Part shown: positions 1 to 29,627 of the stretch, piece by piece
How the letters are laid out: the number at the start of each line of letters is the position of its first letter
How positions within the stretch are numbered: position 1 is the stretch's first letter
IMG/VR virus record: IMGVR_UViG_3300046002_007909
Location: 1-30,218 of that record
DNA length: 30,218 nt
Source: a virus
Direction: 5' to 3' (one strand)
The notes under the pieces: generated by a model
Told to the model about the DNA's origin: nothing
The model's input: the letters and a program-made list of their open reading frames with translations, nothing else
Databases searched by the model: none
Program-made: the position numbers and the translations under genes

Positions 1-369
1 AACAAGAGCAGCAGCAATGATTTCATCGTCCATTGCACGGCCTAATGCCCACATAGCAGCAACGGCATATTCACTCTCAGGACTAATTAACATTTTAATT
101 TTATCTTCGTTATCAACCAAATCGGCATATTCGTAATCGTTTAAAGTTACACGACGACGAGAATGTGGGGTATCCATCCGCGGGGTATCAGCATGACGAG
201 AAGTTTTCTTTTGAGCAACTACCGCACCGATACGATCCCAAAAAGCTGATTTAGAATTTTGTGATTCTTGGCGAACTAATGGACGTAATTTAGAACCTTT
301 TTGTTGTGATAAGTGAAATACGTTAGCAGAATACTGCTTAACAAATGCTTCTGTAATTTGAACAGACAT
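1..369 (-). CDS. Major capsid protein, N-terminal part (runs off left edge)
   Basis: This is the first 123 codons of a gene read leftward from an ATG at 369, open to the window edge. An AACAGGAG ribosome site lies just upstream. The product begins MSVQITEAFVKQYSANVFHL and continues with a basic, R/K-rich stretch (residues ~20-70) and an acidic segment around DNEDKIKMLI. This looks like the N-arm of the capsid proteins found in T7-like-headed podoviruses of the 'phage capsid protein' type, which build the icosahedral head. Position supports the call: it follows portal and scaffold genes in the usual head-gene order. The preceding 130 bases hold a promoter-like sequence, which fits a capsid gene made in excess. 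The C-terminal fold is not visible, so the family call rests on the N-terminus and context. Confidence 0.75.
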   Translation of the reverse strand, partial: MSVQITEAFVKQYSANVFHLSQQKGSKLRPLVRQESQNSKSAFWDRIGAVVAQKKTSRHADTPRMDTPHSRRRVTLNDYEYADLVDNEDKIKMLISPESEYAVAAMWALGRAMDDEIIAAALV

Positions 370-474
370 ATCTAAACTCCTGTTAAAAGTAAATGTTTCA
401 AAACTGTTTTAATAGATTGCCTATATAGGTCTATTCAAGAATATGAGATTGAATTCCCTCACATATATAAAATT

Positions 475-503
475 AGTTTATATTATAACTCAATGCGTGT
501 CAA
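475..503 (-). promoter_or_regulatory. Candidate sigma70 promoter for the capsid gene
   Basis: On the minus strand TTGACA (503-498) is followed after 17 bases by TAAACT (480-475). A second AT-rich box, TATAAT, lies within the spacer at 487-482 but is too close to this -35. The -35 overlaps the stop codon of the scaffold gene. The gap of about 130 bases before the capsid ATG is the longest in the head operon, which fits an internal promoter boosting capsid expression. It is a sequence match only. Confidence 0.45.
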
Positions 504-1375
504 CTGTATAAAACTTCATTTAGTTTTAACATTTCCTGTAATGCCTGTTTATGCCCAGGATGCTGCTTATTCATATAAGGCCCTGTGCGATCAGCATACA
601 TCGCTGAAATTTTATTACTAGCTTCTTCCTTCGTTACTCCAAAGTTTCCTGCTGATTCATGACTAAAAGAATCTTCTTTTAAACCCTTACCTATCTTATT
701 CATCAAACGAACAAATTTCACATTCGATGTTAAACCTGACTCTTTTAGTGTTTCAATCTCTTCTTGCGAAGCAAATTGTCTCAAAGCACGTTTAGCTAGA
801 TCAATTTCTTTATCAAAACCTACACCCCAATCTTTCTTTAGTGCAAACATCTCTGAATCAGCTTTCTGTTTATGTTCCTCTAATACTGCCTTCTGCGCTC
901 CCTCTACTTCTTCATGATACCAATGGAACAAGCTCTCTGCTTGCTTTGGTAATAACCCTGATTTATGAGATATTTCCTTATATTTTTTCAAAAATGTCTC
1001 ATCAACCTCTTGTCCTTCTTTTAATTTTACTTCGTACTTCTCCAAATCTGGACGACCTACTTTATTATAAAATGTATTCCAATCATCATCTGTTGCGTTT
1101 TTACCAGGCAATACAACTTTATCTTTGCCAATCATTTTCTGGGCGTTTACATATGATTTTAAAATCTCAGGATAATTGAATTTTTTATCTTTAATGAAAA
1201 GTTTTAAAGAAGGTTCACTCTTTAAACTATCATCTATCCCATCAGGAAACTCTACCTCAAGCAGAGGATTTTGTTTATCAGGAGGTGCTGTATTAGTAGT
1301 GTTTCCTCCACCCAAAGGAGGTTCATCTAAAATCATTAGTCTTAAATCAAATAACGAACGTAACCATCTAAACAT
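500..1375 (-). CDS. Capsid scaffolding (assembly) protein
   Basis: The 291-residue product is highly charged and mostly helical by composition. It has a proline/glycine-rich N-terminus (about residues 15-40), then the pattern common to phage scaffolds: EPSLKLFIKDKKFNYPEILK, a KSYVNAQKMIGKD helix, and a VLPGKNATDDDW motif followed by GRPDLEKYEVKL. The C-terminal half is coiled-coil-like. Scaffolds line the inside of the procapsid and leave on maturation. The ATG at 1375 has GAGGA about eight bases upstream and overlaps the end of the preceding gene by 8 bases, so translation is probably coupled. Its place between portal and capsid matches the T7-type order. There is no protease domain, so the scaffold probably exits intact. 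Confidence 0.75.
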   Translation of the reverse strand: MFRWLRSLFDLRLMILDEPPLGGGNTTNTAPPDKQNPLLEVEFPDGIDDSLKSEPSLKLFIKDKKFNYPEILKSYVNAQKMIGKDKVVLPGKNATDDDWNTFYNKVGRPDLEKYEVKLKEGQEVDETFLKKYKEISHKSGLLPKQAESLFHWYHEEVEGAQKAVLEEHKQKADSEMFALKKDWGVGFDKEIDLAKRALRQFASQEEIETLKESGLTSNVKFVRLMNKIGKGLKEDSFSHESAGNFGVTKEEASNKISAMYADRTGPYMNKQHPGHKQALQEMLKLNEVLYS

Positions 1376-1646
1376 AATTTATTTCCTCTTCTTCTAGTTT
1401 ATCTATAACTAATTTTAATTTTACTGGGTCTTGTTTCAACATCGTTAAAATGTAATTAACTACGTTTCTCTCGCCTTCTCTGAATATACAGTTATGTATA
1501 TCACCATCAAAAGACGTATGCATAAAGTGGCACTTCTTCATCAAATCATAAAGCACCCGTTGACCCTTCTCATTCTCAAACAATGCTTTATAGTCAGCTA
1601 CCAAATCAACTTGCTTGTATTTCTTACTGTTGTCCTTGTTGTCCAT
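1368..1646 (-). CDS. Bbp19-like small phage protein
   Basis: The 92-residue acidic protein has the pattern FENEKGQRVLYDLMKKCHF, then a variable loop, then REGERNVVNYILTML, ending in an E-rich tail. This resembles the small Bbp19 family first named in Bordetella phage BPP-1, which sits next to portal and scaffold genes in many podoviruses and is presumed to be a minor structural or assembly component; its role is not settled. It overlaps the portal gene by 23 bases and the scaffold gene by 8, showing a tightly packed, probably co-translated group. There is no signal peptide or membrane segment. Confidence 0.6.
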   Translation of the reverse strand: MDNKDNSKKYKQVDLVADYKALFENEKGQRVLYDLMKKCHFMHTSFDGDIHNCIFREGERNVVNYILTMLKQDPVKLKLVIDKLEEEEINYV

Positions 1647-3234
1647 TCATTGCCCCTGACGCTTGCTGAAGTGATTTAGTCTGATTTAAAGCACTCTGCT
1701 CAGCTTGCTGTTGTGCCATAGCCTGCTGACGCTGCTCTCGTATCTTGGCCATATCATCAGCTCTACGGAAAATTAACTGTGGCACGTTATATATGCTTGC
1801 AACATACTTTAGAATTTTATCAGCGTCAACATTATCTAAAACCGAAGGCTCAAATTGTGCTATAGGCCCCATGATACCCATTATCCTGTTCAAATTCTCT
1901 GCCTCAGAACTACGTTGTGCCCTCGCTATCATAGACGAATAATGCACCTCAAATGTCTTCCCCTGTATCTTTTCAGGCGCTGCTTTAATCTTTCCACGCC
2001 TCAACAATATCGAATAAACCCTATTCACCAATGGCTTCAACAATTCATAGTGCTGACGACCCAATATAGGCCCTAACAACCGCAACTTCTCCTCTGTCCT
2101 CTGCAAAACCTCAGTGGCCGTCATCTGCGGCCCTTCATTCAACTGCAACTGATCAATGAAAAATGCATCCCTAATTCGCTTCTGAATCAACTCAAGCAAC
2201 TGCACCCCTAAGTCAGGTCTTGCCCCAGTAATAAGCGGCTCTATCCTATCCTTAGTGCCTGCCCTATAGTAATTAGTTCCACCTGGAATCGTTCTTATTG
2301 GCAATGTTACACCATCATCAGGAACCTGCAACGGTGGGTCTGTGACCTTCTGAGCTGCCCTAATTATCGTCTGCATCATGACATTTGTCATCTTAATATC
2401 AGATAATGCTTTCATAGCCGGCGAACGACCGTATATCTCACCACTAATCTTAGTCCATCGAGGCGTGATATATGGAAACTCCTCAAACCCCGATTCCTTC
2501 AAAATAACCTTCATCCCCAACAAAATGTGAAATGAAGCAAACTTCATACCCTTAGGCCCTATCTCCTGCGCAACGTCCGCATCGCTCCTCTTAAACACCG
2601 CATGTAAAATATCAAACTCTTTATCTAGATCAGTTTGCAGCTGATGTCTCTCATGCTCCGAAAACTCAGCATCTGGGAACTCCTCAAACAACTGTCTACC
2701 TGTCAACACATACTCTCTAAATATCCCGTTAACTATACCCTTAGAACTCTCCTCAAGGTATGCTTCGTTTATAGGACGTGAATTGAAAACAACATCTAAC
2801 TCGTCGTCTTCCTCCACTCTGAGAATGGCCGTACCAAATGCACCCAAATCAAGGTACACTTCATGTATCTCCGTCTGAAAATTCGTATTATTCAAAACCT
2901 GATGAATCTGCAACGCCGTACTCTGCAACCATAGCTTAACGTCGTGATCCCCGTCCAACTCCTCGTCACCCATAGACAACTCAAACCACTGCACCGATGG
3001 ATTCGTTAACATCCCATGCAAAGCTGAAGCAAGTAACTCGTTCGAGTGTATCGCCGTAGCATCAAACACTTTGACGTTACCCTTCTTCTCTCCACCTGTA
3101 TTCCTCTGCTTAACGAATATATCGTCCTTTTTCGGAATAACGTAGTCAGCAACCTCCTGCCAGTGAGCATCCCAATTAGCTCTCGCACTCTTTAGCTTGT
3201 TATATCTTCGTACTATCGCTTCTACCTTACTCAT
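1624..3234 (-). CDS. Head-tail connector portal protein (T7 gp8-like)
   Basis: The 536-residue protein matches the head-to-tail connecting portal family of podoviruses (T7 gp8 type). It opens with a helical RRYNKLKSARANWDAHWQEV segment and a VIPKKDD motif, continues with a FDATAIHSNELLASALHGML segment near residue 65, has a long alpha/beta body, and carries a Q-rich C-terminal tail (last ~45 residues). A dodecamer of this protein would form the unique vertex through which DNA is packed and ejected and to which the tail binds. Length fits the family. It lies downstream of the large terminase and one unknown gene and upstream of the scaffold. The plus strand opposite it is rich in C, and long overlapping ORFs there are shadows. 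Confidence 0.9.
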   Translation of the reverse strand: MSKVEAIVRRYNKLKSARANWDAHWQEVADYVIPKKDDIFVKQRNTGGEKKGNVKVFDATAIHSNELLASALHGMLTNPSVQWFELSMGDEELDGDHDVKLWLQSTALQIHQVLNNTNFQTEIHEVYLDLGAFGTAILRVEEDDELDVVFNSRPINEAYLEESSKGIVNGIFREYVLTGRQLFEEFPDAEFSEHERHQLQTDLDKEFDILHAVFKRSDADVAQEIGPKGMKFASFHILLGMKVILKESGFEEFPYITPRWTKISGEIYGRSPAMKALSDIKMTNVMMQTIIRAAQKVTDPPLQVPDDGVTLPIRTIPGGTNYYRAGTKDRIEPLITGARPDLGVQLLELIQKRIRDAFFIDQLQLNEGPQMTATEVLQRTEEKLRLLGPILGRQHYELLKPLVNRVYSILLRRGKIKAAPEKIQGKTFEVHYSSMIARAQRSSEAENLNRIMGIMGPIAQFEPSVLDNVDADKILKYVASIYNVPQLIFRRADDMAKIREQRQQAMAQQQAEQSALNQTKSLQQASGAMNGQQGQQ

Positions 3235-3238
3235 TTTT

Positions 3239-3586
3239 TTACCCTATATTAAAATCAGTTGCTTGTAATTGTGATCTTCCTGGCATTGATTTTTTTGTAT
3301 CAATATCTGATTTTCTCATCTGAAACATACTCATAATTCGATCCAATGTATCCTGCCCAACAGTCTTGAAATCCTTCTCCTCTCCGTATATCTTAACCTC
3401 TCTCATACCTAACAAATCATCAGATCTAACCGTCCTCAACAAATCAAAATTCTCGTCTCTCGCTGTCGCTGATTGTAAATTAGCACCCGAAGCTAACTGT
3501 CTACCCTGATCCACAAATTGATTGTAATCATTGACATTCATGCCTGTTCTCTTCGATGTTGTGTAACTAGATGATGTCGTACTCAT
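3239..3586 (-). CDS. Hypothetical phage protein between terminase and portal
   Basis: I do not recognise this 115-residue protein. It begins with a Ser/Thr-rich tail (MSTTSSSYTTSKRTGMNV), followed by a likely helical middle with conserved-looking charged patches (ARDENFDLLRTVRSDDLLG) and MREVKIYGEEKDF, and a polar C-terminus. There is no membrane segment or signal peptide. It starts 2 bases after the terminase gene ends and stops 4 bases before the portal ATG, so it is certainly part of the head operon. Small genes in this slot often encode head-completion or packaging accessory proteins, but nothing in the sequence proves that. Another possible start is the internal Met at residue 16. Confidence 0.6.
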   Translation of the reverse strand: MSTTSSSYTTSKRTGMNVNDYNQFVDQGRQLASGANLQSATARDENFDLLRTVRSDDLLGMREVKIYGEEKDFKTVGQDTLDRIMSMFQMRKSDIDTKKSMPGRSQLQATDFNIG

Positions 3587-3588
3587 AT

Positions 3589-4899
3589 TTATACCCCGCT
3601 AAACTCGTTATATTCTCCACTCGCCATCTGTGGTAACTTCTTTCCAAAATCATTTCCATCAAAATCACTATCCCTCGTATCAAGAGCGGAATATCCGAAG
3701 CTGTCAGTCCCGTGCGATGTCCAGTTGTGAAACGGTTTATTCTTATACATCATCAACTTAGAATCCCATTCCTTCTGATAATCCTCCAACGAAGAAATAC
3801 CCCTCGCACACTTAACATCGTCTATGTAACACTTCGGTAGCAAAGATCTAATGGCCTGTATCCGATCATCCACCGCTTGCCGCTTCTGTATCTCCACCCG
3901 TAAACCTAGTTTACGCAAAAACTCCTGCCGTGTCACTCCCGTACTCAAATCCCTAGCTGCGGCATCATGTGGAACGACATGCCTACCATAAGCATAGGGC
4001 AAATCTTTCAACAACTTCACATAATGCTCTAACCCCTCGCCACTCTTCTCATAATAGTCGATATAGTGCCAATTAATCCCCACCCTTTGCCTAAACCATA
4101 TGGCCGTACTGTCTCCTATCCCCAAGTCCCAAAACGTGTCTACGGGGTACTGTGGATCGTACGGAACGCTTCTTAGTCTACTATCCCTACGAAGCTGCGC
4201 CATGATCTTCCCAAAATACACCCCTGGAGCAGCTGACGAAAAATTACAAAGCATCTCCTGCTCGTATTCATCCTCCGTCATATCTGCCCGCATTTCCTCT
4301 AATTCTGCCTTGGGAATAATCCCGCTTTCATCCGCTCGCAATATCTTCGTAAACCAACTAGGATTGGCCCTAGCTTTCTCATATCTATTGTAAAAATGGT
4401 TCTTACCCTTCGGCGTTCCTATAAAAATCGCCCAACCCTTACGGTCAGCAAGCGCAGGTCTGATTATCTCACCCCACACAATAGGATCACACTGAGCAAA
4501 CTCATCCAACACCGCCCCGTCTAGGTATATACCCCTCAAAGAGTCAGGATTATCCGAACCTAGCAGCCGATACGATATTTTATCATCCCAAGGAGGCGGT
4601 CTCTTAATCACAACCTCCAAATCCTTCTTATTAGAGTCAAAACCTGGTATATTTTTCGTGTATTCCAACAAATAATCCCACGCAATGATGCTCGCCTGCT
4701 TGTAAGTAGGAGCCATATATGCATATTTCGGGTTTTTTAAGTTATTTCGCAGCCCTTGATCAATCATCTCGTTGATACTAAATACCGTTTTAGTTCCTCG
4801 ACGATGAATCACAAGCACATTAAACCGTTTTAGGCACCCATGAGTATTGGACTGCCAGAAAATTGGCTTATAACCCGTCGATATATGCTTGACTTCCAC
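3589..4899 (-). CDS. terL: Terminase large subunit (packaging ATPase/nuclease)
   Basis: The 436-residue protein is the DNA-packaging motor: an ATPase docked on the portal and a nuclease that cuts the concatemer. ATPase landmarks are a degenerate Walker A (HRRGTKT, residues 32-38), a Walker B (GAVLDEFA, with D132 E133) and a coupling motif (GTPKG, 161-165). The RNase H-like nuclease part shows acidic residues at FWDLGIGDS (D258, D263), the VVPHDAAARD segment (D312, D317) and a late HGTDSFGY. Length is typical. The Walker A is odd: relatives usually read HRRxGKT, and here the glycine before the lysine is replaced by threonine. The gene shares its end base with the next gene's stop region, so the cluster is closely packed. 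Confidence 0.93.
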   Translation of the reverse strand: MEVKHISTGYKPIFWQSNTHGCLKRFNVLVIHRRGTKTVFSINEMIDQGLRNNLKNPKYAYMAPTYKQASIIAWDYLLEYTKNIPGFDSNKKDLEVVIKRPPPWDDKISYRLLGSDNPDSLRGIYLDGAVLDEFAQCDPIVWGEIIRPALADRKGWAIFIGTPKGKNHFYNRYEKARANPSWFTKILRADESGIIPKAELEEMRADMTEDEYEQEMLCNFSSAAPGVYFGKIMAQLRRDSRLRSVPYDPQYPVDTFWDLGIGDSTAIWFRQRVGINWHYIDYYEKSGEGLEHYVKLLKDLPYAYGRHVVPHDAAARDLSTGVTRQEFLRKLGLRVEIQKRQAVDDRIQAIRSLLPKCYIDDVKCARGISSLEDYQKEWDSKLMMYKNKPFHNWTSHGTDSFGYSALDTRDSDFDGNDFGKKLPQMASGEYNEFSGV

Positions 4900-5099
4900 T
4901 ATTTTTTCTTACTTTTTGCTTGCGTTTGCGACAATTCTTTGAGCTGCTGGGCCATCAACTTGTATGCACCCTCTAACTCAGAATACTCCCGTCGCAATTG
5001 TTGCTGCTGCTGAATCAAGGCATTGCGTTCATCTGATATATTGAGATATTTCTTCTCCAACAGAACAACCTTTTTCTCTAAATCAATCATCGGGTTCAT
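4899..5099 (-). CDS. Small coiled-coil protein between terS and terL
   Basis: From the ATG at 5099 this encodes 66 residues, nearly all heptad-like helix: LEKKVVLLEKKYLNISDERN, a Q-run (QQQQQ), then YSELEGAYKLMAQQLKEL and a basic AKSKKK end. It is predicted to be a coiled coil, which may help assemble the terminase complex; that is inference. The start is uncertain. A GTG at 5165 has an AAGGGG ribosome-site-like sequence containing a GGGTGC motif and would give 88 residues, but it overlaps terS by 83 bases. The ATGs at 5099 and 5090 overlap it by 17 and 8 bases, which is more usual. The stop meets the terL start directly. Confidence 0.6.
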   Translation of the reverse strand: MNPMIDLEKKVVLLEKKYLNISDERNALIQQQQQLRREYSELEGAYKLMAQQLKELSQTQAKSKKK

Positions 5100-5724
5100 T
5101 TTCGATTTTTCTGTGTTCAATATCTCCCACTCGTTCTTGTCGTTCAATATCCGTTCCTGTTTCACTCTGCACCCCTTGCTCTCTATTTATCCCCGTTGAT
5201 ATTATAAACTGTACTGGTGCCTGAGCATCTCCACTGTGTATGGTTCGAGAACCATATCTATAGGGATTCGACACACCTGCCAAGTATTTCAATTTCTCAA
5301 ATTTTAGCTTCTGCACCTGGACTTCGTCTCTATTTAAATCATCAGGCATTTCATTTAAATTGTTCACCATTTTCGTAAAAAACTGCTCTCCTTGCATCTC
5401 TCTCGCATCGTCGAGTTTCTGCTTTATCTCTGGATACACCTTCTGCCATCTCATGACTGTAGTAAGCTTGGGATACCCATCTAGCTTGCACACTTGAGAC
5501 AACGTTAGCCCTCTCTCAACCATCACATCACATATCGAGTCCACGATTAAGGGATGGTAACTCCTGTGAGTAGTGTCGGCACCCATTAACTCTAATAGGT
5601 TTTCCGAATGTCCTATTATTTTTCCAGTCAACATATCGTAAGCAACGATACCACCCCCAGGCATCTGCTCGTAATACGTTCGCTTTTTTAACTCTTCTGC
5701 CGCTTGCTGTGTTGTAATGCTCAT
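5083..5724 (-). CDS. terS: Terminase small subunit (Sf6-like)
   Basis: The 213-residue protein resembles Sf6-type small terminases, which recognise the packaging site and feed DNA to the large subunit. A helix-turn-helix lies around residues 65-95 (RGLTLSQVCKLDGYPKLTTV followed by MRWQKVYPEIKQKLDDAREM), then a QKLKFEKLKYLAGVSNPYRYG segment typical of the oligomerisation core, and an acidic, disordered C-terminus. It lies immediately upstream of terL, as is usual. The ATG at 5724 has AGGT seven bases before it. It is the first gene of the head operon, preceded by a 1.4-kb non-coding region that holds the likely promoter. Confidence 0.8.
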   Translation of the reverse strand: MSITTQQAAEELKKRTYYEQMPGGGIVAYDMLTGKIIGHSENLLELMGADTTHRSYHPLIVDSICDVMVERGLTLSQVCKLDGYPKLTTVMRWQKVYPEIKQKLDDAREMQGEQFFTKMVNNLNEMPDDLNRDEVQVQKLKFEKLKYLAGVSNPYRYGSRTIHSGDAQAPVQFIISTGINREQGVQSETGTDIERQERVGDIEHRKIENEPDD

Positions 5725-5782
5725 GTTTCTACCTATACTGCACCCAATTCAATTAGTCTACCATGAATTTGTCATTACTGCG

Positions 5783-5797
5783 CTATGACAGTGGAGG
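5783..5797 (+). repeat. TATGACAGTGGAGG element, copy 1
   Basis: CTATGACAGTGGAGG occurs here and, extended to TATGACAGTGGAGGGCG, at 9481 and 11063, always on the plus strand and always in non-coding DNA. This copy lies in the presumed leader of the head operon, on the strand opposite to it. A TGTCAT half-site 9 bases upstream makes a TGTCAT/ATGACA inverted pair, also seen at copy 2. The function is unknown. It could be a protein-binding site, a processing site or a replication element. Confidence 0.7.
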
Positions 5798-5814
5798 ATT
5801 CATTCAATTTATTT

Positions 5815-5844
5815 TGTTTATTTATTCTTAATCTGTTTTGTCAA
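5815..5844 (-). promoter_or_regulatory. Candidate promoter of the head operon
   Basis: On the minus strand TTGACA (5844-5839) is followed by AT-rich DNA with TAAACA/ATAAAC at the -10 distance (18/17-base spacing). This is a consensus -35 with a weak -10. It would give a leader of about 85 bases before terS. The palindrome at 5853-5878 sits just upstream and could bind a regulator. Confidence 0.4.
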
Positions 5845-5852
5845 GTAAGTTT

Positions 5853-5878
5853 ATCTTAACTTTTTTCTTTGTTAAGAT
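5853..5878. promoter_or_regulatory. ATCTTAAC/GTTAAGAT inverted repeat
   Basis: Eight-base perfect arms (5853-5860 and 5871-5878) flank a T-rich 10-base spacer directly upstream of the candidate head-operon -35. The half-site TATCTTAAC also occurs at 7050-7058 and 22592-22600, both non-coding. This suggests an operator or activator site shared by late transcription units. Confidence 0.5.
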
Positions 5879-6166
5879 TCTGTTAGTTGTGCGTTGTTTC
5901 TCGTTTTTGTTTTCGGCACACATAATGATATTGATTGCACCCGATTTAGTCTAACTTTACTGTTTCTGATAAGTTACAGTTGATCATTTATGTCAAGTAT
6001 TTTTGATTGTCTATCTCGGCTCGGGCTTCGATGACGCCTCACAAGTAAACAAGGTTCCCGTCTTGGGGGGTACCCCCTTGAAAATATCATTGCTAATACT
6101 ATAGCCAATGCTAATGCTATTGTCATTGCTATAGGCTATAGCTACATGGACTAGATGACCATTGTC

Positions 6167-6249
6167 ATGGCACTGGCAATGGCACTGGCAATGGCACTGG
6201 CACTGGTGGATGGCACTGGTGGATGGCACTGGTGGATGGCACTGGTACC
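6167..6249. repeat. Tandem repeat tract (12- and 13-base units)
   Basis: Three copies of ATGGCACTGGCA (6167-6202) are followed by three near-copies of TGGCACTGGTGGA (6211-6249, the last diverged). The reverse complement is a (GCCATT/GCCAGT) hexamer series akin to the tract at 9369-9462, which runs in the opposite orientation. An ORF encoding Cys-His-Gln repeats on the minus strand here is only a by-product of the repeat. Confidence 0.85.
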
Positions 6250-6404
6250 ATCACCAGAGGCCAGAAAACGGCTCTAGGGCCACTCCACTGCACCCCGAGC
6301 GCTGTAAGATAGGATCTAGGCACCCGATGATTTAAAATGGCCTAAAAACGCCTCAAACGATCATGCACCGCACCCATCGGATCCGGTTGCTCGGATCGGC
6401 ACCC

Positions 6405-6704
6405 CGGACATCATGGCCATGGCCCACGTTGATTTTTTGATAGCGATTGCATGCATGCGCATGTATGTTTTAAAATTATTTTTTCTGTAAAAGGTACCGG
6501 GAACCAGTGAACCGGAACCATTATACTGGTACTATATATATATCTAGTATAACATATAGCATTATAAATAATTCTTATTTATATATATTTTTTAAAACTA
6601 TGAGATATATATCAATTCAACAGTACCCCGCCGCCGATCCACGTTCCACGATCATATGTACACACACTCCTACACTCCTAAAATAGCACTATACGAGCGT
6701 CAGC
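6405..6704. other. Candidate bidirectional replication origin
   Basis: The 300 bases between the last leftward GGGTGC motif (6399) and the first rightward one (6705) hold a strongly AT-rich core (about 6520-6620, with TATATATATATC, ATAAATAATTC and TTTATATATATTTTTTAAAA). It is suited to DNA unwinding, flanked by GC-rich repeats on both sides, and free of genes. Gene direction is the same (minus) on both sides, so transcription does not explain the motif switch. No DnaA-box cluster or phage iteron set was recognised. The origin call is inference from motif polarity and base composition. Confidence 0.45.
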
Positions 6705-6753
6705 GGGTGCAATTAAATCATCGGGTACCAAGTACGGTGCCACCATCAGTACC

Positions 6754-6898
6754 GCACCGGTTTTAACGCGGATCCCTCAGTACCCACATAGCGTTATAAA
6801 ACAAATAAGATTTGTTTTCAACACAAAACGCCAAAACAATATATATTTAAAAAAATAACGCAGTGTGGGTACTGAGGGATCCGAGTCAAAACCGGTGC
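6754..6898. repeat. 44-base inverted repeat with inner hairpin
   Basis: The arms 6754-6797 and 6855-6898 match at about 40 of 44 positions. They share GCACCGGTTTT at the outer ends, a block including GGATCCCTCAGTACCCACA, and GCGTTAT at the inner ends. The 57-base loop contains AAAACAAAT/ATTTGTTTT arms around AAG. It could form a cruciform or a long RNA hairpin. Transposon-like genes and target duplications are not visible, so it may be a MITE-like remnant or a replication/packaging structure. Confidence 0.8.
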
Positions 6899-6953
6899 AA
6901 AACCGGTGCAGAACCGGGTGCAGTGTTGCAAGCATTTTTGACGGTTGATTTTT

Positions 6954-7016
6954 CAAAAACACCGAAAAATGCCTGAAAAACACCGAAAAATGCCAAAAAA
7001 CAACGAAAAAAGGCCC
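6954..7016. repeat. Three 21-base tandem repeats
   Basis: Units start at 6954, 6975 and 6996 and share the core AAAAACACCGAAAAATGCC; the third is diverged (AACAACGAAAAAAGG). They merge into the terminator stem at 7011. The A-richness on the plus strand gives T-runs on the minus strand. Confidence 0.75.
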
Positions 7017-7027
7017 AAAAAGGGCCT
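7005..7027 (-). terminator. Rho-independent terminator of the small exported-protein operon
   Basis: On the minus strand AGGCCC (7027-7022), a TTTTT loop and GGGCCT (7016-7011) form a 6-bp GC-rich stem followed by six T residues (7010-7005). It lies 85 bases beyond the stop of the 271-residue gene and closes the 9074-7112 operon. Confidence 0.8.
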
Positions 7028-7111
7028 AAGGGGTGCAGATCACTGACACTATCTTAACAAACATGGATCGGGTGCCAGATCCATGGCACCGCTTCGAGTA
7101 TTGACTTTTAA

Positions 7112-7927
7112 TTATTTTTGCAATCCGGCATCTATCAAACGTTGCTCGGGGGTGTGGTATACACAATATTTTTTCTGTATATCCTCAAGTGAATTTTCAC
7201 TTAACAGACTTGATGGCAAGTCTATCTGACCGCACTGGCCATATAGAGATTTAAATTTATGGGTGCCGTCGACGATCTCACCGTAAAAACCAGTGGCCAA
7301 AACAGTTTCGTCGTGAACAACTGAATTGTCTTCATTGAAAAAATTTTCAGTGAATTGAGTATTTTCTGAATTGGGTGCGGGGTATTCATTGTAGTGATAT
7401 TGAGATTTGGTTTTTTCGTTTTTGATGTAGATCCCGTTGTCAGTGTGATCAACTGTAAAATAAGATGGCAGTTCATTTTTTTTGTGTTTCGGCAACGATG
7501 ATCGTAGATCTAGATTTAAATCTTGATCCCGCTCGGATGGAGATCCTAAGGGGGTGCCGATTTCTTCTTGATCGATCAACGATCGGAAATAATCAAAGAA
7601 ATACTCATTGTCTTCATTGAACTTGCCATCAATCACGATCAAACTATCAACCGGATTGATGTTTGAATTGAGTATTTCCTCACTGATGAAACACCATGGT
7701 GAGTCTCCGGCAAGTGTGATCCTATATTCGGTGCCAGACATCTTATTTTTGATTTTTGTGACCGTGGATCCATCGCCGACAATTTCAAAAGAAAAATCAA
7801 TGTATTTTTGTACTGTTTTTGGCAGTTCAATGCCGTTTTTTGGCTTTTGTGTTTCGGGTTTTAAAAGATATCCTACACCGGTGCCGATAGTTAAGGCCAT
7901 AACTCCAATTAAAATTTCGTTTTTCAT
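7112..7927 (-). CDS. Membrane-anchored protein of unknown function
   Basis: I do not recognise this 271-residue protein. A short basic start and a hydrophobic helix (residues ~5-22, ILIGVMALTIGTGVGYLL) look like an uncleaved signal anchor; the rest is hydrophilic and would lie outside the cytoplasm. Four cysteines are visible (one mid-protein in SPWCF, CGQ near residue 230, and one near the end in KKYCVYH). The last residues, EQRLIDAGLQK, match the end of the 8452-8757 product (EKRLIKAGLKK), suggesting a shared tail. The leader CAGGAGTAAAAAAATGAAA is identical to that of the next gene upstream. It is the last gene of a four-gene operon. A cell-surface, superinfection-exclusion or host-interaction role is possible but unproven. 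Confidence 0.65.
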   Translation of the reverse strand: MKNEILIGVMALTIGTGVGYLLKPETQKPKNGIELPKTVQKYIDFSFEIVGDGSTVTKIKNKMSGTEYRITLAGDSPWCFISEEILNSNINPVDSLIVIDGKFNEDNEYFFDYFRSLIDQEEIGTPLGSPSERDQDLNLDLRSSLPKHKKNELPSYFTVDHTDNGIYIKNEKTKSQYHYNEYPAPNSENTQFTENFFNEDNSVVHDETVLATGFYGEIVDGTHKFKSLYGQCGQIDLPSSLLSENSLEDIQKKYCVYHTPEQRLIDAGLQK

Positions 7928-7949
7928 TTTTTTACTCCTGATTTAAATT
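7921..7949 (-). repeat. Duplicated translation leader, copy 1 (copy 2 at 8372-8400)
   Basis: 29 bases spanning the ribosome site (CAGGAGT), the A-run and the ATG are identical in front of the 271- and 138-residue genes. The match stops inside both start regions. It points to duplication or conversion between adjacent genes and gives both the same translation signal. Confidence 0.85.
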
Positions 7950-7961
7950 TAATTATTTTTT

Positions 7962-8378
7962 TTACCATATATGATGGCCAACTAAGGCATCATTGATGGG
8001 GTGCAAACAGTTGTATACTTTTAAAACATCGCCATGATAGATATCATCGAGATTGCGGAACGAAACTAAGGCCATGCCCTCAATGATATACCAGTCTGCA
8101 ATTAAATTTGTGCTGTTGTTGATGACTGAAACCATGCCATCAATATCATCCATCATCATTTTTAAATGGCCTTGCGTTGTGTCCGCTTGCTCGGCCAGAC
8201 ATTTTTTTCCGAGATCCAATTCAAGTAAAACCTGATTTTTGTTAGGCAAGCCTGACGCAACATTGGTACATATACTAGTTTGGGGTGCATGTTTTTTACC
8301 TACAAAAAACCCGAGCGAACCCGTTGCAATTAAAAGCAAGGCCAAATTAACGAGTCTTGAGAATAGTATTCTTTTCAT
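7962..8378 (-). CDS. Membrane-anchored protein of unknown function
   Basis: The 138-residue product has a basic N-terminus (MKRILFSR) and one hydrophobic helix (residues ~9-27, VNLALLLIATGSLGFFVG), followed by KKHAP and a hydrophilic domain. It is probably an inner-membrane anchor with the body in the periplasm. Three cysteines (near residues 37, 60 and 124) could pair outside the cytoplasm. The middle (QGHLKMMMDDIDGMVSVINN) may be helical. I recognise no family. It lies 34 bases upstream of the 271-residue gene and shares its leader. An internal terminator-like hairpin separates it from the gene before it. Confidence 0.6.
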   Translation of the reverse strand: MKRILFSRLVNLALLLIATGSLGFFVGKKHAPQTSICTNVASGLPNKNQVLLELDLGKKCLAEQADTTQGHLKMMMDDIDGMVSVINNSTNLIADWYIIEGMALVSFRNLDDIYHGDVLKVYNCLHPINDALVGHHIW

Positions 8379-8400
8379 TTTTTTACTCCTGATTTAAATT
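8372..8400 (-). repeat. Duplicated translation leader, copy 2
   Basis: This is identical over 29 bases to 7921-7949. It contains the CAGGAGT ribosome site and the start codon of the 138-residue gene. Confidence 0.85.
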
Positions 8401-8425
8401 AAAAGGCCCAGCGATTTGCCGGGCC
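8401..8425 (-). terminator. Terminator-like hairpin inside the small-protein operon
   Basis: On the minus strand GGCCC (8425-8421) and GGGCC (8409-8405) pair around an 11-base loop with further possible GC pairs, followed by TTTTAATTT. The T-run is short and the stem small, so it may attenuate rather than stop transcription between the 101- and 138-residue genes. Confidence 0.55.
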
Positions 8426-8451
8426 ATCATTGTTTGGGTGCCGATCCTGAA

Positions 8452-8757
8452 TTATTTTTTCAATCCGGCCTTAATAAGACGTTTTTCAGTGCGGTCGTTT
8501 GCTCGTTTTTCGATGTCTGCTCGTACCTGTTTTTTAATTGCATCTGTTGCATCCACGATCACAATTTTTTTGTTCAACATCTTGGCGCCACGTTGTACGC
8601 TCACGCTATCGCAAGATGTAGACGGTTTAAAAGCGGCTACAAGGTCTTTTGCTTCCTTGTCAACTGGATAGTTTTTGCCATCGACGTTTGCGCAAGTTAA
8701 GGCCATTGCAGATCCAGAAACTAATCCAAAAACAATACCAAAAATCACATTTTTCAT
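8452..8757 (-). CDS. Small secreted (periplasmic) protein
   Basis: The 101-residue protein has a clean Sec signal peptide: MKNVIF, a hydrophobic core and an SAMA site, with cleavage predicted after residue 19. The mature part has two cysteines (C22 and C49), which could form one disulfide, and a lysine-rich helix at the C-terminus. The end, EKRLIKAGLKK, resembles that of the 271-residue gene product. The segment KMLNKKIVIVDATDAIKKQV may be alpha/beta. There is no known family that I can name. A GAGGAGT ribosome site lies 7 bases before the ATG. It is the second gene of the operon starting at 9074. Confidence 0.65.
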   Translation of the reverse strand: MKNVIFGIVFGLVSGSAMALTCANVDGKNYPVDKEAKDLVAAFKPSTSCDSVSVQRGAKMLNKKIVIVDATDAIKKQVRADIEKRANDRTEKRLIKAGLKK

Positions 8758-8807
8758 ATATACTCCTCAAGTTATTATCGGGTGCGATAGTGCATCCGAA
8801 ATTGTTA

Positions 8808-9074
8808 TTAACAATTATAATACTGAAAATCATAGTCTTGGTTATCATCATCAATATCATCGCAATCAATATATTCACCATCATCGGTCAGGGCCTCACC
8901 GTCGAGCGGATAGGCCGGATCGAAACCATCGCCCTCAACTTGATCTCCATTGCAAGGTGATCCGTACCCACCGCAACCGTATTTGGCCATGCAATCGGTG
9001 TCACTGCTACAACTATCATTTGCGGACAACATGGGTGCCGAAATCAGGGCCAGAATTAGAATCAATTTTTTCAT
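8808..9074 (-). CDS. Small cysteine-rich acidic secreted protein
   Basis: The 88-residue product has a Sec signal peptide (MKKLILILALISAPMLSA; cleavage after about residue 18). The mature part has six cysteines (22, 28, 34, 41, 71, 88) and many Asp/Glu/Gly/Tyr. The cysteine block around CSSDTDCMAKYGCGGYGSPC looks like a disulfide-stabilised knot, and the tail DDIDDDNQDYD may bind cations. Similar short CxxDxxC proteins occur in phages and environmental bacteria without known function. It is the first gene of its operon, with a good promoter at 9169-9197, a hairpin-bearing leader and a GAGGTG ribosome site. The DNA encoding ALISAPM is shared with the 9511-9840 gene. Confidence 0.65.
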   Translation of the reverse strand: MKKLILILALISAPMLSANDSCSSDTDCMAKYGCGGYGSPCNGDQVEGDGFDPAYPLDGEALTDDGEYIDCDDIDDDNQDYDFQYYNC

Positions 9075-9092
9075 TTTTCACCTCAATTTTTT

Positions 9093-9150
9093 GCAGTGGC
9101 AAACTGCGATTGATTTTTTTAATTGCACAACTTGTGCCACGTTGCGCAAT
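9093..9150 (-). promoter_or_regulatory. Hairpins in the leader of the secreted-protein operon
   Basis: Two inverted repeats lie between the predicted transcription start and the ATG: ATTGCACAAC (9122-9131) with GTTGCGCAAT (9141-9150), 9 of 10 matching, and GCAGT/ACTGC (9093-9107). They may be an operator just downstream of the promoter, or RNA stems affecting translation of the 88-residue gene. Confidence 0.45.
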
Positions 9151-9168
9151 GCTGATTTTTACACAAAA

Positions 9169-9197
9169 ACAATACATTGTGCTTGCTCAAGTGTCAA
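9169..9197 (-). promoter_or_regulatory. Sigma70-type promoter of the small exported-protein operon
   Basis: On the minus strand a consensus TTGACA (9197-9192), a 17-base spacer and TATTGT (9174-9169) make one of the best host-type promoters in the window. It drives the 88-, 101-, 138- and 271-residue genes with a leader of about 85-90 bases. Confidence 0.65.
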
Positions 9198-9229
9198 ACG
9201 GCCGATAGACTGACAAAAAAACAAATACA

Positions 9230-9294
9230 CTGGTGCCGAAATGGCCCTATCGCTGGTGCCATAATGGCCCTATCGCTGGTGTCAAACTGACACC
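9230..9294. repeat. 23-base tandem repeat ending in a GGTGTC/GACACC hairpin
   Basis: Units at 9230-9252 and 9253-9275 share CTGGTGCC, two or three variable bases and AATGGCCCTATCG. A third unit begins CTGGTG and turns into GGTGTC-AAACT-GACACC (9278-9294). It lies just upstream of the secreted-protein promoter. Confidence 0.8.
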
Positions 9295-9368
9295 ACACAA
9301 AAAACCATCATTATATGTTGCAAAAAAATCATTTTTTTCTAAACATTTTTCATTTGATCCCTGTCCAT

Positions 9369-9462
9369 GCCATTGTCATTGCCATTGTCATTGCCATTGC
9401 TATGTCATTGCTATGTCATTGCCATTGTCATTGTCATTGCCATTGCCATTGCCATTGTCATA
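9369..9462. repeat. CCATTG/TCATTG hexanucleotide repeat tract
   Basis: About fifteen degenerate six-base units (GCCATT, GTCATT, with two GCTATGTCATT variants) run through this stretch. It is the reverse-complement relative of the tract at 6167-6249. The unit is slippage-prone; the copy number could vary between isolates. Confidence 0.85.
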
Positions 9463-9480
9463 GAAAAGGATATATATCTT

Positions 9481-9497
9481 TATGACAGTGGAGGGCG
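9481..9497 (+). repeat. TATGACAGTGGAGG element, copy 2
   Basis: TATGACAGTGGAGGGCG matches copy 3 over 17 bases. It lies 14 bases beyond the stop codon of the minus-strand 9511-9840 gene. A TGTCATA at 9455-9461 forms an inverted pair with TATGACA. Confidence 0.7.
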
Positions 9498-9510
9498 CAC
9501 AGAGGTTTCG

Positions 9511-9840
9511 CTAGGTGTCAAGTTGTAGCAAAAGGGTGCTAATCATGGTCAGGTTTTTTATACTGATTTTTCCCGAGTCATCGGCCAGACGGTAGAATTT
9601 TTCTCTCACGTTTGTTTTTAGATACAATATCGCATGTTTTTCTCCGGCCAAAACTTTATATATCTTACGCCTAGTCATATCAAAATTATCGGCAACGAGT
9701 ATGTCACCAACTTTCATGGGTGCCGAAATCAGGGCCGCAAGGCCATCAAAAGACAAGCGCATATGCACCCCAGAAAAATAATAAATTGAGTTTGATTTTT
9801 TTAAAATTTGTGTTTCTATCGTTTTATTTTTCATTTTCAT
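9511..9840 (-). CDS. Hypothetical protein
   Basis: I do not recognise this 109-residue cytoplasmic protein. It is basic at the N-terminus, then has a beta-rich middle (DILVADNFDMTRRKIYKVLA, GEKHAILYLKTNVREKFYRL) that reads like a small barrel or SH3/PRC-like fold; that is a guess. There is no signal peptide. The ATG at 9840 overlaps the stop of the upstream gene as ATGA, so translation is coupled. Residues 36-42 (ALISAPM) and the DNA under them, 22 bases at 9715-9736 containing GGCACCC, are identical to a segment in the signal peptide of the 88-residue gene. It is last in the HTH-gene operon, so an early or host-takeover role is likely. Confidence 0.55.
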   Translation of the reverse strand: MKMKNKTIETQILKKSNSIYYFSGVHMRLSFDGLAALISAPMKVGDILVADNFDMTRRKIYKVLAGEKHAILYLKTNVREKFYRLADDSGKISIKNLTMISTLLLQLDT

Positions 9841-10052
9841 TCCTTTTCATCACTAAAATACAACAAATCTGCATTGCCAGATTCCGAGTTATTTTGTAAG
9901 TTACTTTGCAAATAGTTATTGTAATCATCGAGCGTTTTTATATACAATTCTAACGCCGATTGATGCATTACATTAATATGATCTAAAGTTAGTTTTATAT
10001 CGCACAGCATAGATTTATATGTTGACAATATAGCTTTGTCTATCGTTTCCAT
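9837..10052 (-). CDS. Hypothetical small helical protein
   Basis: The 71-residue product is almost wholly helical by composition (KAILSTYKSMLCDIKLTL, then HINVMHQSALELYIKTLDDY), with Asn/Gln/Ser-rich and acidic stretches at the C-terminus. It has no membrane segment or family that I recognise. It starts 22 bases after the previous gene with a weak AAGGTC ribosome site and ends in an ATGA overlap with the next. It belongs to the four-gene operon headed by the HTH protein. Confidence 0.5.
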   Translation of the reverse strand: METIDKAILSTYKSMLCDIKLTLDHINVMHQSALELYIKTLDDYNNYLQSNLQNNSESGNADLLYFSDEKE

Positions 10053-10074
10053 TTTTTGACCTTTTTTTAAAATT

Positions 10075-10350
10075 TTATTTTTCGTTTCGTAAATTTTTGA
10101 TAAATCTTTCAGCTTTTATCTGACTGCTAAAATGAGAGTTCAGGCCTGTTGTTTTTGAGCCGTCTAAATTCAAAAAAGTGACTCCATACATTCTATCGCT
10201 ATAGATTCCCCGGCCCTCTGAAAGTTCGTACAGATATCTCCCGGCCTTTCCGTATCTTATGGCATTAGGAGTCATAAAATGCATATTGTCGTTGTAAGCT
10301 TCCAAAAACATTTTTCTGATTTTGTCGCAAGTAAATTTTTCATCGATCAT
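10075..10350 (-). CDS. Hypothetical protein
   Basis: The 91-residue protein is of unknown function. It has an N-terminal helix (CDKIRKMFLEAYNDNMHF), an IRYGKAGRYLYELSEGRGIY segment followed by YGVTFLNLDGS, and a basic C-terminal helix (SQIKAERFIKNLRNEK). This layout of helix, beta and basic helix could bind nucleic acid, but nothing is diagnostic. Its ATG shares one base with the stop of the HTH gene (TAATG), so the two are translationally coupled. Confidence 0.5.
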   Translation of the reverse strand: MIDEKFTCDKIRKMFLEAYNDNMHFMTPNAIRYGKAGRYLYELSEGRGIYSDRMYGVTFLNLDGSKTTGLNSHFSSQIKAERFIKNLRNEK

Positions 10351-10670
10351 TATAGTTCTCCAATTAGTTTTTTCAACATGTCGATATCGCTGGTGATTAT
10401 GACCATGGTCTTTGCTTTCGTTTCTTCTTTTTCTATCTCGAGTTTTTGAATCTTGATATGTTGTTTTGCGGGTGCAGTTTTAAGGCCTTTTTGGGTGCTT
10501 TTTCCCGCTTTTTTCATGTCTCTTAGGTAGTTTCCGACCATGTTATGCACCCGTTTGCTTTCTATGCCATATTCTTCAGCTAATTCTTTTCTGTTTTCTC
10601 CGTTGATTGCTCGGTTGATGATCTCTTGACGAGTTTCTGGATCTAATGTTTTTGATTTGGTTTGCGTCAT
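10350..10670 (-). CDS. Helix-turn-helix DNA-binding protein, probable regulator
   Basis: The 106-residue protein has a resolvase/transposase-like HTH at residues ~10-50: PETRQEIINRAINGENRKEL, then AEEYGIESKRVHNMVGNYLR. A basic linker (KKAGKSTQKGLKTAPAKQH) and an acidic/basic helical tail follow. No catalytic domain is present, so it is more likely a transcription regulator than a recombinase. It is the first gene of its operon (AAGGA eight bases before the ATG) and faces a control region with two kinds of palindrome, so it could bind them and control the divergent early operon. That link is inferred from position. Confidence 0.65.
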   Translation of the reverse strand: MTQTKSKTLDPETRQEIINRAINGENRKELAEEYGIESKRVHNMVGNYLRDMKKAGKSTQKGLKTAPAKQHIKIQKLEIEKEETKAKTMVIITSDIDMLKKLIGEL

Positions 10671-10764
10671 ACGTTACATTCCTTTTTGTTATCAGACAGT
10701 TATGGGTGCGGTTGATGCCTTACCACAATGCTTTCACTTTTGCAAGCACAAAAGAATAAATAGT

Positions 10765-10805
10765 CTTACATCTAACTTTCGTTTCTTACATTTCACAGAT
10801 GTAAG
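10765..10805. promoter_or_regulatory. CTTACAT operator cluster
   Basis: CTTACAT occurs at 10765 and again 20 bases later at 10785. The second copy forms an inverted pair with ATGTAAG (10799-10805), and the outer pair CTTACATCT/AGATGTAAG also matches. Two-helical-turn spacing suits a dimeric repressor. The sites lie about 100-135 bases upstream of the HTH gene. Confidence 0.55.
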
Positions 10806-10948
10806 AATTTAATAAAAACAAGTGTTTGACATTGCGTTTGTTGCAAGCAACTATTCTGTTTATTCATAATATCAACAGGTTAAAAAGGTAGGTGATTTTT
10901 ACAAAAGAAGGATTAAAGTTAAGAAAACTTTTATTTAACTAAATTCTG

Positions 10949-10998
10949 TTTATACCATTCGAGTATAAATAAGCTTTGTTTATGCGGTCCAGTATAAA
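10949..10998. promoter_or_regulatory. Paired TTTATAC palindromes
   Basis: TTTATAC-N7-GTATAAA (10949-10969) and TTTATGC-N6-GTATAAA (10979-10998) are imperfect copies of a longer direct repeat (TGTTTAT...AGTATAAATAA) spaced 30 bases, three helical turns. The geometry is that of a tandem operator for a dimeric regulator. Confidence 0.6.
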
Positions 10999-11062
10999 TA
11001 AATGATATTTACTAACCAAACATTGTTTAATGTACGAAAAAGAAAAAATCTATCTATCTATC

Positions 11063-11079
11063 TATGACAGTGGAGGGCG
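11063..11079 (+). repeat. TATGACAGTGGAGG element, copy 3
   Basis: TATGACAGTGGAGGGCG follows a (TCTA) run and lies about 105 bases before the first gene of the rightward operon. It is identical to copy 2 over 17 bases. Confidence 0.7.
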
Positions 11080-11106
11080 GACGAACTTAATTTCTTAAAA
11101 TATCGC

Positions 11107-11135
11107 TTGCAATTGTGACAAAACTATTTTACATT
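11107..11135 (+). promoter_or_regulatory. Weak candidate promoter of the early operon
   Basis: TTGCAA (11107-11112), a 17-base spacer and TACATT (11130-11135) match sigma70 boxes at four of six positions each. A leader of about 45 bases would follow. No better rightward promoter was seen near the first gene. Confidence 0.3.
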
Positions 11136-11185
11136 TTGTGTAACTAATCTGGCACATGCTAGAGTAACGCAACGGCGGTGATTTT

Positions 11186-11332
11186 ATGTTCGATGTTTAT
11201 GTAGACGGTATCATGGTTGGTTCAGCTGATGAATATTCTGATGCTGTTGAAATAGCTGTGGAAGAGGTAGCTTATATCCAGATCCATGAGAACAGGTTCG
11301 TGGACTGGGAAATAAAGGAGTGTCGTCTATGA
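11186..11332 (+). CDS. Small acidic protein, first gene of the early operon
   Basis: This 48-codon ORF starts at ATG 11186 and ends TGA at 11330-11332. The product begins MFDVYVDGIMVGSADEYSDA, continues with an acidic helix (VEIAVEEVAYIQIHENRF) and ends WEIKECRL. The stop overlaps the next gene's start as ATGA, with an AAAGGAG ribosome site inside this ORF, which is strong evidence for a real translated pair. The preceding ribosome site is weak (GGCGGTG). No family is recognised; small acidic early phage proteins often inhibit host enzymes, but there is no specific sign of that here. Confidence 0.55.
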   Translation: MFDVYVDGIMVGSADEYSDAVEIAVEEVAYIQIHENRFVDWEIKECRL

Positions 11333-11571
11333 AATGGAAAGATGGGGTGCCGAGATACTGTGTCGCTATGGGTGGTCCACCTGATTTAGCTGAAGCAGTT
11401 AGGAATGGTTTTTTCGAGACAATAGAGGGTGCAGAGAAAGATGCAGAATATTGGTTAGAAGAATGGTCTTTGGAAGATCAGGCGTTTATTTTTGAAGTTA
11501 AATTGATTAAAGTAAAACATTATTCACAAGAGGAGAGTTATGAAACGGATAGCAGTGATTGTAGGGCATAG
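11329..11571 (+). CDS. Small acidic hypothetical protein
   Basis: From ATG 11329 this encodes 80 residues. AAAGGAG lies eight bases upstream, and the ATGA overlap with the previous ORF favours this start over a GTG at 11320. The product is acidic and aromatic: a KWKDGVPRYCVAMGG start, an EAVRNGFFETIEGAEKDAEYW helix and a hydrophobic FIFEVKLIKVKHYS strand. It resembles the previous protein in having helix-strand layout and a final amphipathic strand. The C-terminal 10 codons overlap the amidase gene by 32 bases. Two GGGTGC motifs (11345, 11427) lie within it. Function is unknown. Confidence 0.55.
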   Translation: MKWKDGVPRYCVAMGGPPDLAEAVRNGFFETIEGAEKDAEYWLEEWSLEDQAFIFEVKLIKVKHYSQEESYETDSSDCRA

Positions 11572-12208
11572 TGCCAAGGCTTCAGGAGCAGTTAACTTTA
11601 GAGGGGTGCCAGAGTACGATTTCAACCATGGTATTGCTTCGAACGTGTGCCTGGATCTAGTATCGAAATACGAGTGCGAGGCACAGATATTCTTGAGAAA
11701 AACCAGTATTTTGGAAGTAGGAAAAGCTGTTAAACTGTTTGACCCTCACTTCAGTATAGAGTTGCACTTCAATGCAGCTGGATACCCTGTAACAGGCCCA
11801 CAAACCGAGATTCTATGCTTAAACAGCAAGTCAGGGGTGCAATTGGCCCAGAAGATGGCAGCGGCGTTTGATGTGGAATACAAATACGGCCTGAGACGTG
11901 ACAAGGGTGCCAAAATCTTGAGTCCAGAGGATAGAGGATTTATGAATCTACACTCTACTGGCAAGGCAGATGCTCTTTTAATTGAACCTGTATTTGGAGA
12001 CTATGAGACGAAACAATCTGTTGAATTTTTCTCTAAACCAGAGCGCTATGTTCGATTCATGTCTGAATTTATAGCTAAGGAACTGACTCTTCCTCTTTTG
12101 TTCAAACCTGAAATGAAAGAAATGAAGCAAACAGAGATGTTTGAGAAAGACGACTTAATTGCAGCGATTGAGAAGTTAACCGCTGCTTTAGAGCGATATA
12201 AGAGTTAA
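11540..12208 (+). CDS. N-acetylmuramoyl-L-alanine amidase endolysin (Amidase_3 type)
   Basis: The 222-residue protein cuts the amide bond between muramic acid and the stem peptide. Zinc-ligand candidates follow the Amidase_3 pattern: H10 (VIVGHSA), E25 (PEYDFN) and H76 (IELHFNA), with a late catalytic E149 (LLIEPVFGD). A charged helical C-terminal tail (about residues 190-222) may be a wall- or membrane-binding segment. There is no signal peptide, so release would need a holin; membrane-protein candidates lie far away at 21503-22469. GAGGAGAG stands just before the ATG. Unusually, the gene sits in the early/replication operon. Its stop shares TTAA with the convergent primase-helicase stop. 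Confidence 0.85.
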   Translation: MKRIAVIVGHSAKASGAVNFRGVPEYDFNHGIASNVCLDLVSKYECEAQIFLRKTSILEVGKAVKLFDPHFSIELHFNAAGYPVTGPQTEILCLNSKSGVQLAQKMAAAFDVEYKYGLRRDKGAKILSPEDRGFMNLHSTGKADALLIEPVFGDYETKQSVEFFSKPERYVRFMSEFIAKELTLPLLFKPEMKEMKQTEMFEKDDLIAAIEKLTAALERYKS

Positions 12209-14577: not shown

Positions 14578-14607
14578 ATAAATCCTTTTATGCAGGGTGG
14601 GAAAGAA

Positions 14608-14637
14608 ATATTAATTTTTCGCTTGCTAATTTGTCAA
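14608..14637 (-). promoter_or_regulatory. Sigma70-type promoter of the primase-helicase gene
   Basis: On the minus strand TTGACA (14637-14632), an 18-base spacer and TAATAT (14613-14608) precede the ATG at 14577 by about 30 bases. The 80-base gap between this gene and the divergent helicase gene carries it. A GGGTGG run lies between promoter and start. Confidence 0.6.
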
Positions 14638-14657
14638 TCAAAAGTTATTTTTTCTTT

Positions 14658-16079: not shown

Positions 16080-16081
16080 AT

Positions 16082-16552: not shown

Positions 16553-16571
16553 GAAACAAAGGAATAGAAAC

Positions 16572-17315: not shown

Positions 17316-17324
17316 TTATTTCAT

Positions 17325-17347
17325 GGGTGGGGATATCCCACCCTTTT
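17325..17347 (+). terminator. Rho-independent terminator
   Basis: GGGTGGG (17325-17331), a GATAT loop and CCCACCC (17337-17343) form a perfect 7-bp stem followed by TTTT. It lies 10 bases after the SSB-like gene and before the 69-residue gene's ribosome site, so it probably splits the operon or raises the relative output of the SSB-like gene. Confidence 0.8.
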
Positions 17348-17357
17348 AGAGGTTTAT

Positions 17358-21685: not shown

Positions 21686-21687
21686 GG

Positions 21688-24821: not shown

Positions 24822-24830
24822 TCTGCACCC

Positions 24831-28013: not shown

Positions 28014-28016
28014 CAA

Positions 28017-29561: not shown

Positions 29562-29627
29562 AATCCTCCACTCCTTTTTGGGTTTCTTAGTGATTTATGT
29601 TTAGTTTAGTCGGAAAGGCGAGTCACG

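Follow-up and report, generated by a model that had tools for sequence, protein, structure and literature searches.

The region upstream of the small terminase gene

The window analysed here, by which we mean the whole stretch of 30,218 bases, is IMG/VR record IMGVR_UViG_3300046002_007909, a genome fragment from a virus of bacteria; its source is best read as a small, podovirus-like phage. Minus-strand genes include those for terminase, portal and scaffold-like proteins, and elsewhere the window encodes an endolysin, a primase-helicase, an SNF2-type helicase, a family A polymerase and tail proteins. The large terminase subunit (TerL; 3589-4899, minus strand) belongs to PHROG 2, and its closest annotated relatives, in pelagiphages and a Methylophilales phage, are ~40% identical. 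The small subunit (TerS; 5083-5724, minus strand) belongs to PHROG 1482 and matches Pfam Sf6_terminase above cut-off. The replication genes comprise a 790-aa AEP Prim-Pol/D5 SF3 primase-helicase (12205-14577, minus strand; Pfam D5_N and DUF5906 above cut-offs), the SNF2-type helicase (14532-16079, plus strand; Pfam SNF2-rel_dom and Helicase_C above cut-offs) and the family A DNA polymerase (17852-19609, plus strand; Pfam DNA_pol_A, PHROG 17). Rfam and tRNA searches returned no matches.

Between TerS and the next gene, 7112-7927, lies a stretch (5725-7111) with no convincing open reading frame. The original prediction placed a bidirectional replication origin here, near 6.5 kb, on the grounds that a strand-polar motif reverses its orientation in gene-free, AT-rich DNA flanked by genes transcribed in the same direction. 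The anatomy of the region agrees with that description. Both flanking genes are on the minus strand, the switch falls between 6404 and 6705, and no other 120-bp segment of the window is as AT-rich as positions 6501-6620 (78% AT), a candidate DNA unwinding element. To the right of this core is a 44-nt inverted repeat, a candidate initiator-binding element, whose left arm (6754-6797, plus strand) is 91% complementary to its right arm (6855-6898, minus strand) across an interval of 57 nt, and a repeat search also found 11-bp tandem repeats of CAAAACCGGTG at 6887-6922 on the plus strand. To the left, simple tandem repeats of TGGCAC/TGGCACTGGTGGA occupy 6091-6246 (plus strand).

The same layout is found in a near-complete relative of 40,010 bases, IMGVR_UViG_3300002026_000078 (hereafter G001), whose flip region is also non-coding and likewise contains the most AT-rich 120-base segment of its genome. 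There, iterons of the TTCATGTGCG type make up a 62-nt inverted repeat in the same relative place as the window's 44-nt repeat, so that in both phages a long inverted repeat lies just right of the AT-rich segment, and GATGCC repeats occur at the place matching 6091-6246. The repeat sequences themselves differ between the two phages, and it is the layout that is kept. In both, the flip lies just upstream of TerS.

Two further kinds of short sequence were noted in these genomes. Short simple repeats (TGGCAC, TGCCAT, GATGCC) are present at 6091-6246 and 9368-9461 of the window and at 2270-2353 and ~4990-5090 of G001 (L036); in both phages they adjoin the predicted origin region and immediately precede a promoter-like word, CTATGACAGTGGAGG. 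This word occurs three times in the window (5783-5797, 9480-9494 and 11062-11076, one copy having T in place of the first C), each time preceding, in the minus-strand sense, a block of leftward genes. G001 has copies at the corresponding places, near 2043, 5111 and 5885, and the 14-base core occurs in more than 100 stretches of viral contigs. CTATGACAGTGGAGG is probably a promoter, and we rejected it as a part of the polar array described below.

An 8-bp word with zone-specific orientation

GGGTGC is the most enriched 6-mer of the window, with 96 copies (45 plus, 51 minus) where a dinucleotide model predicts 6.6. When the flanks of these sites were aligned, the eighth base was C in 0 of 96 sites in the window and in 4 of 166 sites in G001. 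In the window the rule is independent of reading phase and extends to non-coding DNA, which argues that the word is a genuine recognition sequence. The element is thus 8 bp, 5'-GGGTG[C/G]-N-[A/G/T]-3', longer than the word on which the original prediction was based. GGGTGG is a weaker form in the window, with 20 copies (GGGTGC:GGGTGG, 96:20), whereas the two forms are equally common in G001 (84:83). Outside the 8 bp the flanks show weak preferences, chiefly a scarcity of G two and three bases 5' of it; the array is therefore not made up of copies of some longer repeat or mobile element. In most zones there is one site per 250-500 nt per strand, with a spacing not clearly more regular than random.

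The orientation of these sites divides the window into zones. All 14 GGGTGC copies up to position 6404 lie on the minus strand, and the next 26 (6705-13119) comprise 24 on the plus strand and two, at 9765 and 10547, on the minus strand; the counts originally reported were exact. Relaxing the word to GGTGC did not abolish the switch (19 minus and 2 plus left of 6404; 31 plus and 6 minus from 6706 to 13119). When all 96 orientations across the whole window are taken together, their change point maps between 6399 and 6705 (permutation p = 1.5e-4). Zone A, on the left, covers the late genes from 1 to 6404 (14 minus, 0 plus). Zone B (6705-12204) carries 22 plus and 2 minus sites though its genes are mostly on the minus strand. 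Two small proteins encoded in zone B (8452-8757 and 8808-9074) have signal-peptide-like starts, one of them being cysteine- and acidic-rich, and their homologs were found in G001 only, among the genomes compared. The rest of the pattern was absent from the original account: zone C (12205-20158), which includes the replication genes, carries sites on both strands at full density (19 plus, 22 minus), and from 20159 to 30218 zone A resumes over late genes with mostly minus-strand sites, giving 27 minus and 4 plus for zone A overall. Measured from the flip, the one-way zones contain 49 outward and 6 inward sites (p = 2e-9). The centre of zone C does not face the flip across the circle but is shifted to the plus-strand side, and strand use inside the zone shows no significant gradient (p = 0.11).

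Codon usage, transcription or chance might be suspected, as the late genes and their motifs share the minus strand, but this explanation is already refuted. Minus-strand genes carry 5 plus and 30 minus sites in zone A and 10 plus and 2 minus sites in zone B (Fisher 3e-5), so that transcription does not account for the flip, as the original prediction had argued. Synonymous-codon shuffles yielded only ~2-3 favoured-strand sites per zone, as against 8-22 observed, and every zone exceeded its shuffles. The whole pattern, moreover, recurs in G001.

Composition changes at the same place. With the motifs masked, the fourfold sites of minus-strand genes were scored for plus-strand GC skew. In the window it was -0.57/-0.13 in zone A, turning to +0.14 in zone B; the G001 values were -0.64/-0.11 and +0.16. 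The skew thus changes sign at the motif flip point in both phages, independently of transcription. In both, the G-rich strand points outward from the flip. Leading strands are usually G-rich.

The array in G001 and the search for others

Because the window is a fragment, the full-genome test was done on G001. Its proteins are 86% (TerL), 86% (portal), 62% (primase) and 64% (polymerase) identical to those of the window phage. The ends of G001 (L036 1-33 and the contig end) overlap inside TerL with one mismatch in ~33 bases, which suggests that the genome is complete and that its IMG/VR label of 'linear' is probably wrong. The switch persists in this 40-kb genome, as it did when all GGTGC words were counted, so the computational outcome that the original prediction named as refuting did not arise. 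Sites are nearly all on the minus strand from ~18 kb through the end to 2021, the first plus site is at 2996, zone B is mostly plus, and the replication genes carry both strands; in the one-way zones outward sites outnumber inward ones by 83 to 7 (p = 1e-17). In codon-aligned orthologs of the two phages most sites are unshared. Of the unshared sites in zone A, 33 have the expected orientation and 4 the opposite one, while those in zone C are split 26 to 30. It follows that orientation is preserved according to genomic position while single sites turn over.

Relatives were sought through TerL, the primase and gp34-like proteins, and G001 was the sole further phage found to carry the array; two independent genomes, those of the window phage and G001, have it among those compared. 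A third contig, L004, was discarded as an independent case, being 100% identical to window positions 1247-6031. More distant homologs, about a dozen, show no such array, and it is absent from phages (G004, G005 and further loci) whose full-length homologous primases are 32-42% identical. Unsupervised word scans of G003-G009, HTVC010P, HTVC106P, Venkman, nine AEP-D5 phages and T7 gave no comparable polar array. HTVC010P-like pelagiphages and the Methylophilales phage Venkman thus share ~40% identity in TerL with the window phage but have no GGGTG[CG] array. CAGTG in G005 was rejected, as it is enriched in coding DNA and not polar. The Salmonella phage 9NA (L187-L189), which has a primase of the P4/D5 kind, carries the GTG-containing word CCCGTG (66 vs 17) over its whole genome; with mild enrichment and weak strand bias, it was not accepted as a comparable array. 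One phage contig with a homologous primase (L207) has ~68 tandem CCTAGA hexamers at 244-658. In the open-access literature we found no precedent for strand-polar words in phage genomes and no account of origins in HTVC010P-like phages.

A predicted origin and candidate readers of the word

The persistent switch, the skew sign change independent of transcription, and the AT-rich unwinding element with adjacent repeats, each found in both genomes, lend support to the origin predicted near 6.5 kb. A bidirectional origin at the flip (~6.4-6.7 kb) is well supported by this sequence evidence, and we regard it as probable. Forks would leave the gene-free flip region in both directions, and selection would keep the 8-bp word on the lagging-strand template, that is, on the minus strand to the left of the flip and on the plus strand to the right. 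The primase-helicase would then most likely recognise the word on the template and start Okazaki primers there, and forks arriving from the two sides could meet in zone C, where both strands carry sites. Since zone C coincides with the replication genes, its mixed orientation may have a cause other than fork meeting.

The 790-aa protein is a candidate reader of the motif. It scored 46.3 bits with D5_N (PF08706) and 64.9 bits with PF19263, both above cut-offs, as expected of a D5/SF3 helicase; the Pox_D5 C-terminal domain missed its cut-off in the window protein but passed in two homologs. Searching Pfam and PDB sequences with N-terminal profiles gave nothing useful. A full-length structural model was poor (pLDDT 41), and for that reason only the N-terminal 351 residues, modelled from 13 homologs (pLDDT 89), were used. 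This model predicts an AEP Prim-Pol fold followed by a helix bundle. It matched S-2L PrimPol with Z 11.3 (rmsd 3.5 over 158 residues), RepB' with Z 9.4, CAPP with Z 8.6 and the AEP domain of VACV D5 with Z 7.7. The DhD metal-binding motif is represented by D80 and D82, invariant in the 13 homologs, and the R..P.T.N signature is also present. At the position of the Prim-Pol motif II histidine, the window and G001 proteins have Gln and the remaining homologs have His or Gln. Cysteines 245, 311, 321 and 324, after the Prim-Pol domain, are invariant; their conservation suggests a metal site, which could join in template recognition.

Two known systems bear on how such a protein might read the word. 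The pRN1 primase requires 5'-GTG-3' in its template, binds it via a helix-bundle domain, and starts primers just 5' of it (PMC8076596). Like the window protein, pRN1 ORF904 joins a Prim-Pol domain to a helix bundle and, beyond it, a helicase, but it uses a 3-base word with no genome-wide polar array reported in the cited work, as compared with an 8-bp word in ~100 copies here. GGGTG[CG]ND contains GTG, on the strand that forks moving out from the flip would copy as lagging template. T7 priming sites are found on the negative chain to the left of its origin and on the positive chain to its right (PMC12839067), and the gp4 sites, 5'-(G/T)2GTC-3', thus have the same polarity as the array. T7 gp4 is of a different primase family from the window protein, however, and the array is not of the (G/T)2GTC type, its top 6-mer GGGTGC being without GTC. 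In T7 itself, GGGTC, a known priming word, shows no strong enrichment and no polarity. The GTG of the motif on the lagging-template strand, the pRN1 requirement and the T7 polarity lead us to prefer a primase site to a Chi site. The start site of a phage primase is the best single explanation of the motif, to which we give roughly an even chance; an origin at the flip together with a lagging-template motif, most likely read by the primase, is the best joint explanation, and we lean slightly toward its being correct. Several observations weigh against this explanation: phages with homologous primases at 32-42% identity lack the array, the T7 priming word is not arrayed, zone C sits off-centre with no significant gradient, and the array is known from two independent genomes only. 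An SF3 helicase usually moves along the leading-strand template, and coupling to sites on the lagging template is therefore not automatic. The density of the array in most zones also exceeds that of Okazaki starts in T7, which are ~3 kb apart (PMC12839067), and this counts against priming.

The original prediction likened the motif to Chi or KOPS. KOPS is the GGGNAGGG word that FtsK reads toward dif, and this part of the likeness fails, as the enriched word is GGGTG[CG]ND. The outward polarity does recall Chi. With the origin at the flip, a host RecBCD/AddAB-type enzyme could read the word as a Chi-like site that directs the repair of broken forks back toward that origin. E. coli Chi is over-represented, with 75% of sites on the leading strand, and Chi words are short and GC-rich (PMC5959072), properties that fit the array, which is likewise G-rich, over-represented and skewed outward from the flip. 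Chi, though, is a contiguous 8-mer read by host RecBCD and occurs about once per 4.5 kb in E. coli, roughly a tenth of the density seen here; the favoured form of our word shifts between close phages (96:20 vs 84:83); and we know of no Chi word with a skipped base or a three-way position like the seventh and eighth bases of the element. A Chi-like role is thus less apt than a primase site, and although it is the chief competing explanation we judge it unlikely.

Somewhat less likely again are two other accounts, between which we see little to choose. The flip could be a genome end or packaging site beside the terminase genes, with replication starting inside zone C and the motif on the leading-strand template; the flip does lie just upstream of TerS in both phages, and linear-phage origins are often near replication genes. 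Leading strands would then be C-rich, opposite to the usual sign, and the leading template needs no repeated priming-type site. The AT-rich core and iterons, moreover, favour an origin, and the G001 contig is closed by an overlap within TerL, with nothing at the flip to suggest a genome end. Alternatively, a fork-polar motif could serve another reader, for instance a protein that tracks along DNA, packages it or segregates it, using the motif as FtsK uses KOPS. Polar arrays of this sort guide translocases in bacteria, and small genes of no known family lie beside the flip, but terminase was the sole translocase recognised among the proteins scanned, and an array with constant orientation in the late region and mixed orientation in the middle is unfit to guide a one-way motor.

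Returning to the primase reading, it may be that most primases use short words for which enrichment is unnecessary and that this clade came to need a rare 8-bp one. We tentatively propose, at a little under even confidence, that this lineage has evolved an array devoted to priming. Strand-polar and genome-wide, it would consist of 8-bp primase start sites, one every few hundred lagging-template bases, whose preferred sequence shifts as the primase diverges. If so, selection on primase sites would be strong enough to reshape coding sequence genome-wide, unlike in T7, and the array would supply a convenient substrate on which to test sequence-specific Prim-Pol primases. It would also serve, in an uncultured phage, as a natural record of where lagging strands are primed and which way forks move, so that the origin, the fork directions and the fork-meeting zone could be deduced from sequence alone, and polar word arrays would offer a way to locate origins in viral contigs.
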